Source of the DNA: a virus
DNA length: 25,737 nt
Virus record (IMG/VR): IMGVR_UViG_3300042397_000832
Coordinates: 1-25,737 of that record
Direction: 5' to 3' (one strand)
This document shows positions 422 to 18,843 of the stretch, in pieces (position 1 is the stretch's first letter; every line of letters starts with the position of its first letter). A model generated the notes under the pieces. The model saw nothing but the letters and a program-made list of their open reading frames with translations, did not search any database and was not told the DNA's origin. The translations under genes were made by a program, and so were the position numbers.

Positions 422-435
422 AGGGCAATATGGGA

Positions 436-464
436 AGGGGGTATCTTCGGATACCCCTTTTCTT
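436..464 (+). terminator. Rho-independent terminator with UUCG tetraloop
   Basis: GGGGTATC (438-445) pairs perfectly with GATACCCC (450-457) around a TTCG tetraloop, and TTTTCTT follows. This is a classic intrinsic terminator, closing the reductase/thioredoxin operon just before the promoter of the PA14 gene. Confidence 0.92.
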
Positions 465-476
465 ATGCCTAAATAA

Positions 477-485
477 TGTTATAAT
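477..485 (+). promoter_or_regulatory. Extended -10 promoter for the PA14 gene
   Basis: TGT-TATAAT (477-485) is an extended -10 element directly after the terminator; no good -35 box is seen. Transcription would start near 492, inside the left arm of the hairpin at 490-511. Confidence 0.65.
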
Positions 486-489
486 AGTC

Positions 490-511
490 TTGTTAGCCTT
501 AAAACTAACAA
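490..511 (+). other. 5' leader hairpin next to the ribosome binding site
   Basis: TTGTTAG (490-496) and CTAACAA (505-511) form a 7-bp stem with an 8-nt loop. Its right arm runs into the AAGGAG ribosome binding site at 510-515. At the very 5' end of the predicted transcript it could protect the mRNA or tune translation of the exported PA14 protein. Confidence 0.5.
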
Positions 512-523
512 GGAGACCCCAAA

Positions 524-2275
524 ATTAAAAAACCCCAGATTATATTACTAACAGTTTTACTAGCCTTTGCCCCACTTTTTATGTCCAGCCTAGCATTCGC
601 AGAATCTAGAGAAGAATATGATGCACAAGTGGAAGCAGCCGAGGCTCAAGTTTCTGCTGCTCAGGAAGCCCTACAAGACGCACAGACGGCTTATAATAGT
701 GCTCTGGCAACTGGAGTGTCCCTAGATTCTCAGATAGCCCAGGCAGCCCAGAATCTTGCTAATGCACAGGCTGCATACGATCAATCTCAGATCCCAGACC
801 CATCATGGACAAGGCCAGATGTAGAGCAAGTTTATACTGTTGATGTTCCATACACAGTCCAGGTTCCTTATATTGTCCAAGAGCCAGTTGTGACAAGCGT
901 TGCAACCACAACATCCGTTCCAAATACCACCTACGTAATTACTGGTGGGGTAACTGCTCAAATGTATAATCGTCTTGGATACAACAATGCTCCACCATTG
1001 CCAACAGCAAACGAAACGCCATTAGTAACTACAACTGTTTCTAACATAGACTTCCAATGGGGAAGTGGGTTCATCTTTCCAGAAGGAAACGTTTGGCGTT
1101 CAGAGGATGTGCTTGTTAAGTTTACTGGTAATCTCATGGTTCCTGCTGATGCATACTACGAGTTCTTTGCACCAGCAGACGATGGGGTAATTCTAAACAT
1201 TGCTGGAATGGGACTGATCAACGACTGGTATGACAAAGGCGGTGGCGGAACCATCTCGCAGCCAGTATGGATTAGAGCAGGCATCCTATACCCATTTACA
1301 TTTTACTACTACGAAAATGGTGGTGGAGCATGGGTACAGTTTAATGCCAGGGTAGTTGGTGATTCAGATTTTCAAGTAGTTCCAGCAGCATGGCTAGGAG
1401 CACAGGTAACAGAAACAACCACCTATGAAGAAGTAACAACATATACCGACGTAACTACGTATGTTGATGTGACTTATTATAGAGAAGAGTTGGCCTATCG
1501 ACAGGAAGAAAGAACGAGAACGGTTCCTGACGAGAATGCTGTTCAACCAAAGATCAAAGATCCGAACCTACTTCCTTCTATAGAAAATGCACAAGATAAT
1601 TTAGATAGTCTTAATGCTAGCAAGAATGAAAACTCGGGTATAATTGAATCAGCATCTAAGGATGTAACAACTGCACAAGAGGAGTTACGTGTCGCTCAAC
1701 AAGAACTGGAAGCCATTCCACCATTCAGAGAGCCAACACCTACGCCTACGGAGACCGAGAGCACTCCTGAAGAGCCAACAGAGCCTGAGCCAGAACCGCT
1801 ACCAGAACCAGAGCAAACAGAAACCCCAGACCCAGAATCAGAATCTGAGTTACGAGTAGACGAAGCAGTATCCGAGATTGAAAATCTTGTAGAGATAGAT
1901 CCAGACGAACTTACAGAAACTCAGGTAGAAGAACTTGTTTCAGCAGCCATGATTGTTTTTGAAACAGCAGAGCAAGGCTCTGAGGAATACAACCAAGCAC
2001 TTGAGGCACTAGCAGTTGCAGCACAAGCAGACGACCCACAAGTTTCTGAAGAACTTGCAGCAATCCCACTACTAGGAGATGCTGCAGTAGTAGCCTTAGA
2101 AGTATTTAATAATCTTGGTAACGTTGGTGCAGACATGTCTCCTCAAGTTCGTGAAGAATCAGAAAAGACAATTATTGCATCTGTTATCGCAGCAGGAGCA
2201 GCAATCAACGCTGTCTCCGCAGCAGCAGTAACCGCAACATCTTCGGGTGGCGGAGCAGCAAGGAGGATAAACTAA
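524..2275 (+). CDS. Exported PA14-domain, coiled-coil surface or structural protein (AUU start)
   Basis: The first ATG of this frame is at 581, but starting there removes a clear N-terminal signal. Reading back in frame to ATT at 524 adds MKKPQIILLTVLLAFAPLF, which gives a complete Sec signal ending at A-F-A before E-S. An AAGGAG lies 8 nt before ATT, and an in-frame TAA lies just upstream (506-508), so ATT is the only codon that fits. The mature part has an Ala/Gln-rich coiled coil (about residues 30-85), beta-rich segments with many V/Y/T repeats, a PA14-type domain (about 175-280, with APADDGV and the aromatic-rich YPFTFYYYENGGG), a second coiled coil, a Pro/Glu/Thr-rich linker (about 400-445) and an Ala-rich hydrophobic C-terminus. 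PA14 domains bind glycans, so a role in adhesion or host envelope binding is likely. Starting at 581 is the conservative alternative. Confidence 0.72.
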   Translation: MKKPQIILLTVLLAFAPLFMSSLAFAESREEYDAQVEAAEAQVSAAQEALQDAQTAYNSALATGVSLDSQIAQAAQNLANAQAAYDQSQIPDPSWTRPDVEQVYTVDVPYTVQVPYIVQEPVVTSVATTTSVPNTTYVITGGVTAQMYNRLGYNNAPPLPTANETPLVTTTVSNIDFQWGSGFIFPEGNVWRSEDVLVKFTGNLMVPADAYYEFFAPADDGVILNIAGMGLINDWYDKGGGGTISQPVWIRAGILYPFTFYYYENGGGAWVQFNARVVGDSDFQVVPAAWLGAQVTETTTYEEVTTYTDVTTYVDVTYYREELAYRQEERTRTVPDENAVQPKIKDPNLLPSIENAQDNLDSLNASKNENSGIIESASKDVTTAQEELRVAQQELEAIPPFREPTPTPTETESTPEEPTEPEPEPLPEPEQTETPDPESESELRVDEAVSEIENLVEIDPDELTETQVEELVSAAMIVFETAEQGSEEYNQALEALAVAAQADDPQVSEELAAIPLLGDAAVVALEVFNNLGNVGADMSPQVREESEKTIIASVIAAGAAINAVSAAAVTATSSGGGAARRIN

Positions 2276-2446
2276 ATGAAAAAATTTCTAAATGACATTC
2301 TTGGTCAAGCCTGGACACTCCTCGGTATGTTCGTAGCCTGGGTAGTTCTAGAGGGCTCTGCCAAAACAATCGTTGGATATTGCATACTTGGGACCTTGGG
2401 TCTATGGGCAGCGACATATCCACTAAGAAATGAAAAAGAAGATTAA
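2276..2446 (+). CDS. Small two-helix membrane protein, holin candidate
   Basis: A 56-residue protein begins with ATG directly after the TAA of the PA14 gene, with AAGGAGG 9 nt upstream. It has two hydrophobic stretches (about residues 11-25 and 32-47) and a charged RNEKED tail, as in small phage holins or holin-associated proteins. It sits between an exported PA14 protein and another small membrane protein. No diagnostic motif is present, so the holin role is only suggested by size, topology and position. Confidence 0.6.
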   Translation: MKKFLNDILGQAWTLLGMFVAWVVLEGSAKTIVGYCILGTLGLWAATYPLRNEKED

Positions 2447-2472: not shown

Positions 2473-2730
2473 ATGGTAAAACAAATCGCAGACATATTCG
2501 CAAGAATGGTAGCAGTCTTCGTAATCTCAGCACTTGGGGTTCTAGGTGCTGGTGCTATTGCTGGAGTAGAGGTTCTACAGGCAGTACTTATGGCAGGTCT
2601 ACTTGGTGTAGCACGTGTCCTTGAAGATCTAGCCAAGTCATTCCTTCAGGATGGCAAACTTACTCAGGCTGAGATTAATGCAGCATTCCGCAAGGAACAC
2701 AGCAGAGCAGAAGAAGAAGCAGAGAAGTAA
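2473..2730 (+). CDS. Small membrane protein, holin-like
   Basis: This is an 85-residue protein starting at the ATG at 2473, preceded by AAAGGAG at 9 nt spacing; the upstream TTG at 2464 is less likely. Residues 10-48 are strongly hydrophobic and Ala/Gly/Val-rich, with room for two membrane helices. The C-terminal third is charged (QDGKLTQAEINAAF, then an E/K-rich tail). Hydrophobic N-terminus plus charged cytoplasmic tail fits a class II holin. It forms a pair with the membrane protein at 2276. The lysin genes of this window are elsewhere (4644 and 18322), so the holin call is tentative. Confidence 0.6.
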   Translation: MVKQIADIFARMVAVFVISALGVLGAGAIAGVEVLQAVLMAGLLGVARVLEDLAKSFLQDGKLTQAEINAAFRKEHSRAEEEAEK

Positions 2731-4199: not shown

Positions 4200-4272
4200 T
4201 GGTCCATAACTCAGTTGGCAGAGTGTTCGGCTGTTAACCGAAATGTCGGAGGTTCGAACCCTCCTGGACCAG
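4200..4272 (+). tRNA. tRNA-Asn (anticodon GTT)
   Basis: A complete cloverleaf of 73 nt: acceptor TGGTCCA/TGGACCA, D stem ACTC/GAGT, anticodon stem TTCGG/CCGAA around CTGTTAA, T stem GGAGG/CCTCC, discriminator G. CCA is not encoded. Confidence 0.96.
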
Positions 4273-4287
4273 CGATAGAAATATCAT

Positions 4288-4358
4288 GCGTATGTTGCAT
4301 AGTGGTAGTGCCCTATCCTTCCAAGTTAGAGGTGCAGGTTCGATTCCTGTCATACGCT
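4288..4358 (+). tRNA. tRNA-Gly (anticodon TCC)
   Basis: A 71-nt cloverleaf: acceptor GCGTATG/CATACGC, D stem GCAT/GTGC, anticodon loop CTTCCAA, T loop TTCGATT, discriminator T. The anticodon stem CTATC/GTTAG has one T-T mismatch. CCA is not encoded. Confidence 0.92.
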
Positions 4359-4361
4359 CGG

Positions 4362-4407
4362 ATGGCACCCTAGCATTACTCGTAAGATCAATTTCACTGG
4401 GTGTCAT
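4362..4407 (+). other. Stable hairpin between tRNA-Gly and tRNA-Asp
   Basis: ATGGCACCC (4362-4370) pairs with GGGTGTCAT (4399-4407), with one G-U pair; two more pairs (AG 4372-4373 with CT 4397-4398) form after a bulged T. The loop is about 23 nt. It is followed by TCTTT. It may be an RNA-processing structure of the polycistronic tRNA transcript, a weak terminator, or a decayed tRNA; it does not fold as a tRNA. Confidence 0.5.
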
Positions 4408-4412
4408 TCTTT

Positions 4413-4486
4413 GGCTTCGTAGTTCAGTTGGTTAGAACGCCACCCTGTCACGGTGGAGGTCGTGGGTTCAAGTCCCATCGGAGTCG
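4413..4486 (+). tRNA. tRNA-Asp (anticodon GTC)
   Basis: A 74-nt cloverleaf: acceptor GGCTTCG/CGGAGTC with two G-U pairs, D stem GTTC/GAAC, anticodon stem CCACC/GGTGG around CTGTCAC, T stem GTGGG/CCCAT, discriminator G. Confidence 0.95.
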
Positions 4487-4533
4487 CTAACGGTTGCCTA
4501 ACCGCTCTCAGGGGTATGAGATAAAATAGGTGT

Positions 4534-4606
4534 GCCACCTTAACTCAGTAGGTAGAGTGCCATACTTGTAATATGGATGTCAACAGTTCGATTCTGTTAG
4601 GTGGCT
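4534..4606 (+). tRNA. tRNA-Thr (anticodon TGT)
   Basis: A 73-nt cloverleaf: acceptor GCCACCT/AGGTGGC, D stem ACTC/GAGT, anticodon stem CCATA/TATGG around CTTGTAA, T stem AACAG/CTGTT, discriminator T. A TAAAAT at 4522-4527 just upstream could be a -10 element of its own, but no -35 box is seen. Confidence 0.95.
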
Positions 4607-4610
4607 CAAG

Positions 4611-9741: not shown

Positions 9742-9951
9742 ATGTTAATAACTTCACTTGAGAAGATGGAAGAAATTGTTAAGAATAATAACAATCTTTC
9801 ATGGGATGGCTGGACAGTCATCGAAAACAAGACCAATGAAAATGGTGCAATGTCTAAAGACGGTGCATACGTTGAAGGCAAATGGATCGTACAGAAACGT
9901 TACGAGGCAACTGCTACTGGTTGGGAGATTCCACACAAGTTAGTTGGTTGA
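9742..9951 (+). CDS. Small conserved phage protein (LSWDGW type)
   Basis: A 69-residue protein with AGGAG 7 nt upstream of the ATG. It contains NNNLSWDGWTVIE and a late WEIPHKLVG, a pattern I recall from many actinophage genomes without assigned function. Its stop region overlaps the start of the WhiB gene, so the two are coupled. Confidence 0.78.
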   Translation: MLITSLEKMEEIVKNNNNLSWDGWTVIENKTNENGAMSKDGAYVEGKWIVQKRYEATATGWEIPHKLVG

Positions 9952-10243
9952 AGTGGATAAGCATGACTGGAAAGACGATGCTGCCTGCCTCGGTATGGTA
10001 ACAAATACGTTCTTTGACGAATATGAAGAAAAGCCACAAGACAGAACATTTGTTGATTCAATCTGTGCAGAGTGCCCAGTAAGAAAACAATGTTTTGCTT
10101 CAGCCGTTACAAACAGGGCCTGGGGTGTCTGGGGTGGTATCTACTTTGAGAATGGAAAGATTTCAAGGGAATTCAACAAGCACCGCACTAAAGAGCAGTG
10201 GGCTGAAACCTGGAAGAGTTTAACTTTGGATAAAGGAAAATAA
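9944..10243 (+). CDS. WhiB-family iron-sulfur regulator
   Basis: A 99-residue protein with the four cluster cysteines C15, C41, C44 and C50 (C-x2-C-x5-C) and the family turn G-V-W-G-G at 61-65, followed by a basic C-terminal region. WhiB proteins bind a 4Fe-4S cluster and the primary sigma factor's region 4. They are found only in Actinobacteria and their phages, so this gene is a strong host marker. Phage copies such as WhiBTM4 can block host WhiB function. The start is TTG 9944 or GTG 9953; neither has a ribosome site, so translation depends on the upstream gene. Because it contacts sigma-region 4, it may shift host RNA polymerase toward the phage promoters. Confidence 0.9.
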   Translation: MVEVDKHDWKDDAACLGMVTNTFFDEYEEKPQDRTFVDSICAECPVRKQCFASAVTNRAWGVWGGIYFENGKISREFNKHRTKEQWAETWKSLTLDKGK

Positions 10244-12032: not shown

Positions 12033-12920
12033 ATGGATAATTCACAAATGCAAGACCCAGAAGACATGGGCAAGTCGTATACTTCGGACAACGAAGAAAT
12101 GGACAAGTGGGACAACGTTACGAAGGCCTGCTGGGTAGGATATACGCAGCGAGGAATGAAGGAAAAAGACGGTCGCATGGTTCCTAATTGCGTTCCAGTG
12201 TCAAAGTCTGAAGACGTTCCAGTGTCAAAGGTCGCTCAGGCAATTACTGAGGGTGACTATGTTATGGGCAGCACATCCGAAGGAATTGTTGTTGGTCAGG
12301 TAGAGCACATTATGCGTGAGGGTGGGGTTTATGGTATTCCTGGCACAGAGTATGCCATCCAGTCTACTCCAGAAAATCCTGCTATGGCAGTTAGAATGTT
12401 TGAACAAGAAGAAGATGGAAAGTATTGCCCAACAGCATACTCAATTGGAATGCTATATAGCAACGCAACCATAGTTGATATCGAAGTTGAAATCGAAGAA
12501 GAAGATGAATACGAAGATGAGATGTCAAAGGCTGAGGGATACTCTCCACCAGCAGGTGCACGTGCAGCAGCAAGACGTGCAATTAAATTTAAGGAAGACG
12601 GCAAAGCCACAGGTGCAGGAACAGCGGTGGGCTGGACAAGAGCAGGACAACTCGCAAGAGGAGAGACACTATCTCTAAGCACTGTTAAGCGTATGTTCTC
12701 ATACTTCTCACGTCACGAAGTAGACAAGAAGGGTAAGGATTGGGGCAACCAGGCTAATCCATCAAACGGATACATCATGTGGCTTGCCTGGGGCGGAGAC
12801 GCAGGGTTCTCTTGGTCACGTGGCATTGTGAACCGCATGAAAGACAAGGCGTTGTTCTCTGAGTTTGGTAAAGACTACACCAAGCACACATCTCTGGATT
12901 CAATCTGGAAAGATCAGTAA
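12033..12920 (+). CDS. Two-domain phage protein with an acidic linker
   Basis: A 295-residue protein started by a leaderless promoter. The N-terminal part has [24 protein letters not shown] (about 33-56), a small motif (GY..xGMK.K.G+.VPNC.P) that I recall from several virus proteins. A long acidic linker ([12 protein letters not shown], about 152-163) follows. The C-terminal domain has [20 protein letters not shown] and [18 protein letters not shown], a pattern seen in T4-like cyanophage and other phage proteins. The combination suggests a structural or prohead-related role, but no catalytic site is recognised. It is coupled with gmd (TAATG). Confidence 0.68.
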
Positions 12921-13994: not shown

Positions 13995-14066
13995 GGTCCC
14001 ATAGTTTATCGGTTAGAACGTCGCCCTTTCACGGCGGTAGGAGGGGTTCGATTCCCCTTGGGACTG
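13995..14066 (+). tRNA. tRNA-Glu (anticodon TTC)
   Basis: A 72-nt cloverleaf: acceptor GGTCCCA/TGGGACT with one G-U pair, D stem GTTT/GAAC, anticodon stem TCGCC/GGCGG around CTTTCAC, T stem AGGGG/CCCCT, discriminator G. Confidence 0.95.
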
Positions 14067-14070
14067 CGAC

Positions 14071-14144
14071 ACACCTATAGTTCAGTTGGTTAGAATGCTT
14101 CTCTGATACGGAAGAGGTCCCTGGTTCAAATCCAGGTGGGTGTA
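14071..14144 (+). tRNA. tRNA-Ile (anticodon GAT), with encoded CCA
   Basis: A 74-nt cloverleaf: acceptor ACACCTA/TGGGTGT, D stem GTTC/GAAT, anticodon stem CTTCT/GGAAG around CTGATAC, T stem CCTGG/CCAGG, discriminator A. It is the only tRNA here with CCA directly encoded (14145-14147). Confidence 0.94.
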
Positions 14145-14148
14145 CCAA

Positions 14149-14220
14149 TCCCCTTTGGTGTAATTGGCAACACTACGGTTTTTGGTGCCGTCATTCTTAG
14201 TTCGAATCTAGGTGGGGGAG
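14149..14220 (+). tRNA. tRNA-Gln (anticodon TTG)
   Basis: A 72-nt cloverleaf: acceptor TCCCCTT/TGGGGGA with an imperfect last pair, D stem GTGT/ACAC, anticodon stem ACGGT/GCCGT around TTTTGGT, T stem CTTAG/CTAGG. It begins one base after the CCA of tRNA-Ile. Confidence 0.92.
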
Positions 14221-14233
14221 CGATAGGAGAGCA

Positions 14234-16324: not shown

Positions 16325-16397
16325 GCCTCTGTAACTCAGTGGATAGAGTAGGAGCCTTCTAATCTCTTAGTCGTAGGTTCGATTCCTACCAGGGGCA
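16325..16397 (+). tRNA. tRNA-Arg (anticodon TCT)
   Basis: A 73-nt cloverleaf: acceptor GCCTCTG/CAGGGGC with one G-U pair, D stem ACTC/GAGT, T stem GTAGG/CCTAC, loop TTCGATT. The anticodon stem GGAGC/TCTCT has a C-T mismatch next to the loop CTTCTAA, and a G-T pair. It is transcribed on the plus strand; the gene on the minus strand reads antisense into it. Confidence 0.9.
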
Positions 16398-17076
16398 CTT
16401 CATATCTGCTAGGCTCTGGAAACATATCAGCCAGCAGCGTTTCCTTTAGAAGATCAAATGACTTATCTTCGCTAGATACAAACGGATACTTACTTCCAAG
16501 ATAAGACAGGTCGCTCATAGAACTTGACTTGTGATATATTTTGACATCACGCATCTTTGCTGACGTTATGTTGTAAATATTACCATATATAGACCTAGCC
16601 TGAAATGGCAGATAAGCAATCTCCAAGAACTTTTTCTTGTTGATTATCATAGGAACATGAAGGTCATAGTCTAGTGGATCTTTTATGCCAGACTTTTTTA
16701 GGTATTCCAGAGTTTTCTTCAGTGAGATTACGTATCTAGATGTTGGATCTATCTGGCGGTACTTAGCAATCTTGTCAGACAAATAGCCACCATTATAATT
16801 CCTAAGTCTTCCAACAGGCCTGATCAAAAAGAAATCATCATTCATATAAACAAAGTTCTTAGATATGCTAGGGTGGTTGGCAGCAGCCGTTAGTGCCAAT
16901 CGAATATTGTTAAACTTGTTAGATGTATCTTCTACAGGTATAAAGTCTCCTATATACCAGTCTGGTTTATATCCCACAAGCCACACACGGCTCTCTGGCA
17001 GGTTTTTGACTACAGATCGTAATGAATACCGCAGTTCTTCGTTATCGCCTTTACGGCAGATGTAGACTATGTCCAT
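16336..17076 (-). CDS. Stealth-like glycosyltransferase (sugar-phosphate transferase), 3' end antisense to tRNA-Arg
   Basis: A 246-residue protein. It begins MDIVYICRKGDNEELRYSLR and has FVYMNDDFFLIRPVG (75-89), both like the CR1 and CR2 blocks of Stealth proteins, which transfer sugar-1-phosphates in capsule synthesis. The D79-D80 region would bind metal. LDYDLHVPMIINKKKF (about 143-158) fits CR3. The last 20 residues (227-246, with VGIEPTT) are the translation of antisense tRNA-Arg, so the true C-terminus was probably lost or replaced when the tRNA came to lie there. The tail is unlikely to be functional. Confidence 0.72.
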   Translation of the reverse strand: MDIVYICRKGDNEELRYSLRSVVKNLPESRVWLVGYKPDWYIGDFIPVEDTSNKFNNIRLALTAAANHPSISKNFVYMNDDFFLIRPVGRLRNYNGGYLSDKIAKYRQIDPTSRYVISLKKTLEYLKKSGIKDPLDYDLHVPMIINKKKFLEIAYLPFQARSIYGNIYNITSAKMRDVKIYHKSSSMSDLSYLGSKYPFVSSEDKSFDLLKETLLADMFPEPSRYEVPLVGIEPTTKRLEGSYSIH

Positions 17077-18321: not shown

Positions 18322-18843
18322 ATGAATAAAACACAAATAACCCTAGCCCTTTCCGCTATCCTTACCCTATCGGTGTCTGGTAGTTCTGTTGCTGCTGGTG
18401 ACACGAACGATACTGCAACGATCGTAACTGTGCAGGCTACCGCACCAGAGTTCAAGCCCAAGGCCACAGTAAAGAAACCTGACGCTAAGAAAAGATTGTC
18501 TGCAGTAGAACTAAAGAATCTTTTGCACAAGGTAGGCTTTCGTGGCAAGGACCTCGTAGAAGCCTGGGGTACTGCGATGAAGGAATCAACAGGCAGACCA
18601 TTCGCACACAACCGTAACAGTAACACAGGAGACAACTCATATGGTCTATTCCAGATCAATATGATTGGCTCACTAGGCCCTGCCAGACTAAAGCAGTTTG
18701 ACCTAGAGAACAACAAAGATTTGTTTGACCCATACACCAACGCTAAGATTGCATTTGAAATGTCTGACGGTGGCAAGAACTGGTCAGCATGGAACGGACT
18801 TACTGAATCAACTAAGTCTTGGATGAAGAAGTTCCCACACTAA
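18322..18843 (+). CDS. Secreted SLT/lysozyme-like muramidase
   Basis: A 173-residue protein. Residues 1-25 form a signal peptide (MNKTQ then LALSAILTLSVSGSSVAA). After a Pro/Lys linker and a helical part (59-83) comes the transglycosylase SLT core, AWGTAMKESTGRPFAHNRNS (81-100) with the presumptive catalytic E88, and SYGLFQIN (106-113), the classical lysozyme-fold block. It would cut glycan strands outside the cell membrane. A signal-carrying lysozyme is unusual as a second lysin beside the M23 peptidase; it could be a SAR-like or virion-injected enzyme or a resuscitation-promoting-factor-like protein. Confidence 0.84.
   Translation: MNKTQITLALSAILTLSVSGSSVAAGDTNDTATIVTVQATAPEFKPKATVKKPDAKKRLSAVELKNLLHKVGFRGKDLVEAWGTAMKESTGRPFAHNRNSNTGDNSYGLFQINMIGSLGPARLKQFDLENNKDLFDPYTNAKIAFEMSDGGKNWSAWNGLTESTKSWMKKFPH

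Follow-up and report, generated by a model that had tools for sequence, protein, structure and literature searches.

Predicted non-AUG start codons recur in a phage family of exported PA14 proteins

Known systems and the present locus

To our knowledge, only a few bacterial genes have been documented to start naturally with AUU or AUA. In infC and pcnB, an AUU start limits translation (PMC5472188, PMC13009471), the codon of infC serving the autoregulation of IF3. Conserved AUU and AUA starts behind strong Shine-Dalgarno (SD) sequences gave ca 10% of the output of AUG in Staphylococcus aureus reporters, and the staphylococcal genes cvfC1 (AUU) and ccpN (AUA) combine a conserved start with an extended SD, cvfC1 being first in its operon (PMC13009471). 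In the sigR-rsrA operon of Streptomyces, the first gene starts with GTC, preceded by AGGAGGTG, and this start reduces its product relative to the coupled second protein (PMC5472188). Among phages, orf28 of Streptococcus phage TP-J34 has a predicted AUU start (PMC3952083), and the T4 genes e, soc and I-TevI have promoters so placed that their own transcripts are left without the strand that occludes the SD (PMC3014915, PMC2988022).

The locus described here lies in a viral record of 25.7 kb (the whole stretch of DNA analysed, hereafter the window) and holds a gene for an exported protein with a PA14 domain, the start codon of which, from comparison with its relatives, is almost certainly AUU. 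Its likeness to sigR-rsrA lies in an actinobacterial setting and a first cistron whose non-canonical start follows a strong and conserved SD, with a coupled second cistron made in excess, which for the phage is predicted; sigR, however, uses GTC or GTT within one genus, encodes a regulator and is proven to be repressed through IF3 (PMC5472188), whereas the phage family draws on six near-cognate codons and encodes an exported protein, with IF3 as a candidate participant. Similarly, cvfC1 and ccpN are bacterial chromosomal genes with starts confirmed by Ribo-Ret, whereas the starts of the phage family interchange and are predicted from sequence; infC and pcnB are neither phage genes nor genes for exported proteins; and for orf28, one gene of the terS region, a family-wide pattern is not reported. 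The T4 genes use late promoters, whereas the window has a TGNTATAAT promoter, a weak start in addition, and a silencing that is predicted. As regards the protein, the fold of its central domain is that of the carbohydrate-binding PA14 domains of Marinomonas MpAFP and the Flo/Epa adhesins, but it lies between coiled coils, is followed by a C-terminal hydrophobic segment and occurs in a phage. We found no description of this phage PA14 family in the literature. Each ingredient alone has precedent, and what is new is the breadth, the six interchanging near-cognates, the phage setting and the combination with a 5' hairpin.

The start site of the PA14 gene

The frame of the gene, on the plus strand, is open from 509, after an in-frame TAA at 506-508, to the stop codon TAA at 2273-2275. 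An SD, AAGGAG, at 510-515 is separated by an 8-nt spacer from ATT at 524-526, and the in-frame TAA lies 15 nt 5' of this codon, confirming the coordinates given in a first-pass annotation of the window. Reading from ATT 524 gives a typical Sec signal peptide, (M)KKPQIILLTVLLAFAPLFMSSLAFA|ES (524-601, cleavage likely after AFA), which is kept in relatives and opens a coding sequence of 583 aa (524-2275). All three frames are free of ATG, GTG, TTG and CTG between 492, the predicted transcript start, and 566. The first NTG after 492 is an out-of-frame TTG at 567 and the first in frame is ATG 581, within the signal peptide, where starting would remove most of the signal. In other words, the codon at SD spacing is none of ATG, GTG and TTG, and no canonical codon could serve instead.

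A start elsewhere, be it at ATG 581 (without signal peptide), at AUU 539 or AUA 542, or by way of a frameshift, is very improbable. ATG 581 is where the mechanical list of open reading frames places the start, but the residue at this position varies in relatives, being Val in loci L001 and L004 and Ser in L002, and 581 is therefore no conserved start; the signal peptide, by contrast, is conserved in relatives, contrary to what would be expected if homologues started at 581 without it, the outcome by which the first-pass annotation would have fallen. The SD is 23 nt away from AUU 539 and 26 nt from AUA 542, and the stretch 492-566 holds no NTG to feed a frameshift. Moreover, the codons past 524 are constrained. 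Across 50 family pairs, the dN/dS of the first 22 codons past the called start is ca 0.22 in frame, as against 0.79 and 2.0 in the other two frames; a stricter version, which takes ATH-started pairs and the codons before the next NTG, gives ca 0.39 from 7 pairs only. As judged from these ratios, selection acts on the protein encoded in that frame 3' of the called start.

The SD-to-ATT arrangement is itself common by chance, with 4 pairs observed in the window against 7.6 expected, such that the evidence for the start is the comparison with relatives and the AGGAG-N-ATT motif alone was set aside as uninformative. A phage tRNA-Ile(GAU) at 14071 was considered as the initiator and found to be unsupported. 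There are eight tRNA genes in the window (4200-4607, 13995-14221 and 16325-16398), for Asn, Gly, Asp, Thr, Glu, Ile-GAU, Gln and Arg, the last of them overlapping the 3' end of an open reading frame on the opposite strand (16336-17076, minus).

Start codons across the family

IMG/VR was scanned five times, with the window protein and four relatives as queries, giving ca 288 loci, with some contigs repeated. Starts were called conservatively, in that ATG, then GTG, then TTG was preferred wherever an SD stood at 4-12 nt; a recognisable SD was required, and 38 of 281 ORFs have no automatic call. The 146 distinct 5' ends so obtained have ATT (57), TTG (49), ATA (14), GTG (10), CTG (7), ATG (6) and ATC (3), counts that are not independent since the family contigs are related. 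The homologous site lies directly 3' of a strong SD and 5' of a signal peptide of the form (M)KK, and the nearest relatives of the window, L001 (93%), L004, L007 and L002, all have ATT. The non-AUG state is thus conserved across homologues, with the proviso that about a third of them have UUG, a weak but canonical start. Alignment of the start region, as had been proposed, gives non-AUG codons nearly throughout, a few members (ca 5%; 6 of 146) having ATG.

That the codon might be a sequencing error or a recent mutation from ATG was suggested in the first-pass annotation, and there only; it is rejected, since ATT, ATA, ATC, CTG, TTG or GTG stands at the same position in well over 100 contigs from many metagenomes. 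The AUU start proposed there for an exported PA14 protein instead appears, from these comparisons, to be one instance of a rule that holds across a large phage family and is larger than first reported.

A tree built from 113 non-redundant PA14 domains requires at least 47 changes of start codon, of which only 5 are between AUG and non-AUG, and at least 29 changes between the class ATG/GTG/TTG and the rest; these numbers are indications, as the tree is weakly resolved (few columns, low support) and domain shuffling may have taken place.

This pattern bears on the notion of an IF3-responsive switch, by which the protein would be made only when IF3 activity drops or ribosomes change during infection. 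AUU, AUA, AUC and CUG together make up 81 of the 146 starts, and non-canonical triplets are subject to discrimination by IF3 (PMC4611024); in actinobacteria, sigR is repressed in that manner (PMC5472188). UUG, however, is not discriminated against by IF3 (PMC4611024), and UUG and GUG, which escape such discrimination, account for 59 of 146, and the tree has at least 29 switches between them and the other class, while there is no sign that these phages alter IF3. The frequency of UUG and GUG members means that IF3 is possible but not required, and we regard the switch as unlikely. For the same reason, about a third of the family being UUG, a weak start fits the family better than a sensor of IF3 specific to AUU.

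Beyond the close family, the window protein and the 56-aa protein encoded next to it are unmatched among named phages, with distant matches only to phage DSL-LC01 and a fecal phage. The distant homologue in DSL-LC01 (OQ999401; L290, 3705-6539) is annotated with an ATG start and forms a contrast case. Seven loci found mainly via the C-terminal region (L262, L289, L256, L274, L254, L261 and L282) have quite different signal peptides, with ATA or ATT starts, mostly behind a 5' hairpin, and the non-AUG trait may therefore extend past the close PA14 family.

AUG avoidance in a single cistron

Control genes were taken from the same contigs as ORFs of at least 100 aa, reading the in-frame codon 4-10 nt behind a strong SD. 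Among 528 such codons there are 431 ATG, 54 GTG, 14 TTG and 29 others, nearly all of the latter having, by inspection, an ATG or TTG within reach and being due to chance. The corresponding 79 family codons comprise ATG 2, GTG 3, TTG 28, CTG 3, ATT 34, ATA 6 and ATC 3. Phage-wide use of AUU is ruled out by this control.

Cellular exported PA14 homologues have an ATG within signal reach in 49 of 57 cases and lack any ATG, GTG or TTG in 1 of 57; by the same rule the phage family has an ATG in reach in 9 of 110 and is without any of the three in 54 of 110. Signal-like control ORFs from the same contigs have an ATG in reach in 164 of 223, and the 28 of them without any NTG mostly resemble non-coding or misframed ORFs. 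The cellular homologues and the signal-like ORFs together rule out that exported proteins, or PA14 proteins, in general behave in this way. The gene that follows in the operon, for the 56-aa membrane protein, starts with ATG in 55 of 66 cases, usually overlapping the PA14 stop codon. Since both the same-contig genes and the operon partner mostly have ATG, the avoidance of AUG is specific to the PA14 cistron.

The protein, its operon and the host

The PA14 domain (1019-1342, plus strand) is recognised by Pfam PF07691 (E 1.8e-6; 28.3 bits, above the gathering cutoff of 24), and the modelled domain matches solved PA14 structures in Foldseek, for example 6x7z (TMt 0.70), the model of the protein being weak at both ends. 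Coiled coils stand on both sides of the domain. The C-terminus has a conserved motif, made up of GADM and an R-E-rich stretch, behind which come a hydrophobic helix and a short tail of basic residues; these last two (2141-2230), modelled with low confidence, form a probable membrane anchor. This architecture points to a type I membrane protein exposed on the outer side of the membrane.

The second cistron (2276-2446, plus strand, ATG start) encodes the 56-aa membrane protein, a homologue of which follows the PA14 gene immediately in 93 of the 113 family loci. The third (2473-2730, plus strand), present in 66 of 113 loci, encodes a holin-like small membrane protein (PHROG 443, holin, E 6e-4). 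Its better match is to PHROG 26427 (E 2e-23), labelled nuclease, a label that is unlikely for a short hydrophobic protein and may be a wrong annotation.

The hosts of the phage family are probably freshwater actinobacteria. A WhiB-like protein with four cysteines, seen by eye at 9944-10243, supports an actinobacterial host.

Terminator, promoter and leader hairpin

Between a thioredoxin gene and the PA14 operon lies an intrinsic terminator (432-463, plus strand) with a 14-bp stem, a UUCG loop and a T-rich tail, the region 425-466 folding with -20.8 kcal/mol. Terminator-like stems 5' of the promoter are found in 14 of 25 family cases as against 14 of 119 controls. The terminator is followed by an extended -10 promoter, TGTTATAAT, at 477-485 (plus strand). 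The motif TGNTATAAT occurs 7 times in the window against 1.35 expected (0/100 shuffles), and at four places (12018, 18043 on the minus strand, 18057 and 18307) an ATG stands exactly 7 nt past the -10, that is, at +1. These ATGs, at 12033 (+), 18036 (-), 18072 (+) and 18322 (+), probably belong to leaderless genes, that at 18322 being the normal ATG of a gene for an exported lysozyme-like protein; leaderless genes are common in Actinobacteria (PMC3160421). Among control sites in family contigs, 25 of 180 have an ATG or GTG at exactly this distance from the end of the -10. The same spacing sets the predicted start of the PA14 transcript at 492, which is the first base of the stem GUUAG/CUAAC.

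This stem belongs to a hairpin at 488-513 (plus strand), which in RNA from the gene's own promoter would comprise 492-496 paired with 505-509, and in read-through RNA would be extended by the pairing of 488-491 with 510-513, into the SD. In other words, the predicted 5' end makes the hairpin 5'-terminal with the SD largely free, and 4-6 extra 5' nucleotides are what let the stem grow into the SD. Of the earlier claim that a hairpin overlaps the ribosome site, the fold stands (490-496 pairs with 505-511), whereas simple covering is improbable, as the stem would reach the SD mainly in read-through RNA. In energy the 71-nt piece is ordinary relative to shuffles (z -0.57); as a class, the family leaders fold better than those of other promoters, the mean z being -2.39 as compared with -1.0 (p = 2.4e-4). 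Within the clade of the window, pairing holds in 97% of the cells of the nine pairs proposed, and covariation is thin, one pair being altered on both sides. An Rfam scan returned tRNAs only and no known leader RNA.

The leader resembles those of T4 e and soc, with a promoter directly upstream and its predicted +1 inside the 5' arm of the SD-occluding stem. This raises the possibility that timing, rather than dosage, is what is controlled, with an SD that is hidden in read-through RNA alone and a weak codon as a secondary safeguard against early synthesis of a harmful exported protein. In favour are the T4 precedent (PMC3014915, PMC2988022), the position of the hairpin at the predicted 5' end, and the pairing of the extension 5' of +1 with the SD beyond that of control promoters: family spacers pair with the SD at 2.59 as against 0.86 pairs for a null made of the spacers of 180 other same-contig promoters (p = 1.3e-5), a comparison which weighs less as it was designed after the negative outcome of a within-family test. 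In that test, permuting or swapping spacers within the family had no effect on SD occlusion (p 0.82 and 0.48). Furthermore, the upstream terminator already restricts read-through, the palindrome might serve instead as an operator in the DNA or simply stabilise the 5' end, and timing alone leaves the exclusion of AUG unexplained. Timing as the main function is accordingly a tentative reading, to which we give less weight than to dosage; with one of two tests positive, SD occlusion in read-through RNA is an unproven, secondary layer.

A weak start, probably for dosage control

The non-AUG start, the reading frame, the operon, the promoter and the leader hairpin are all conserved. We consider it likely that the conserved weak start, together with the structured leader, keeps the exported PA14 protein scarce relative to its AUG-started operon partners. 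Translation would begin at AUU 524 with the initiator tRNA, selection excluding AUG from the position and allowing AUU, AUA, AUC, CUG, UUG and GUG to interchange. The PA14 gene would stand first in an operon that is insulated by a terminator and has a good promoter of its own and an AUG at its second cistron, and the weak start would render the exported, probably membrane-anchored protein scarce in comparison with the downstream small membrane proteins, stoichiometry being the presumed purpose. A good promoter and a strong SD would be contradictory to a weak start if the aim were merely low expression; the combination makes sense if the operon is transcribed well for the sake of the downstream AUG genes whilst the first protein is held scarce.

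The hairpin would probably add a second layer to dosage control, extending into the SD in read-through RNA and so silencing the gene, the own-promoter RNA being without the occluding strand. Weak start, 5' hairpin and terminator together may also guard against premature expression. The tight translational control suggested in the first-pass annotation is in keeping with the recurrence of the non-AUG start and the leader hairpin across the family, as far as sequences can tell. That the family is defined by selection against AUG as such, that a near-cognate start, any of the six, is required, and that output follows the initiation state of the infected cell, ribosome fidelity setting the ratio of the PA14 protein to its membrane partners, is a further version of the idea which we think doubtful.

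Significance

With well over 100 sequences from which AUG is nearly excluded, the phage family constitutes a natural experiment on start-codon strength. There is a practical consequence, in that gene callers limited to ATG, GTG and TTG would lose the signal peptide or put the start in the wrong place for roughly half of the family's genes, and such miscalling hides the export of the proteins. Beyond this, the family offers simple tests of dosage control by weak starts in actinobacteria and their phages.
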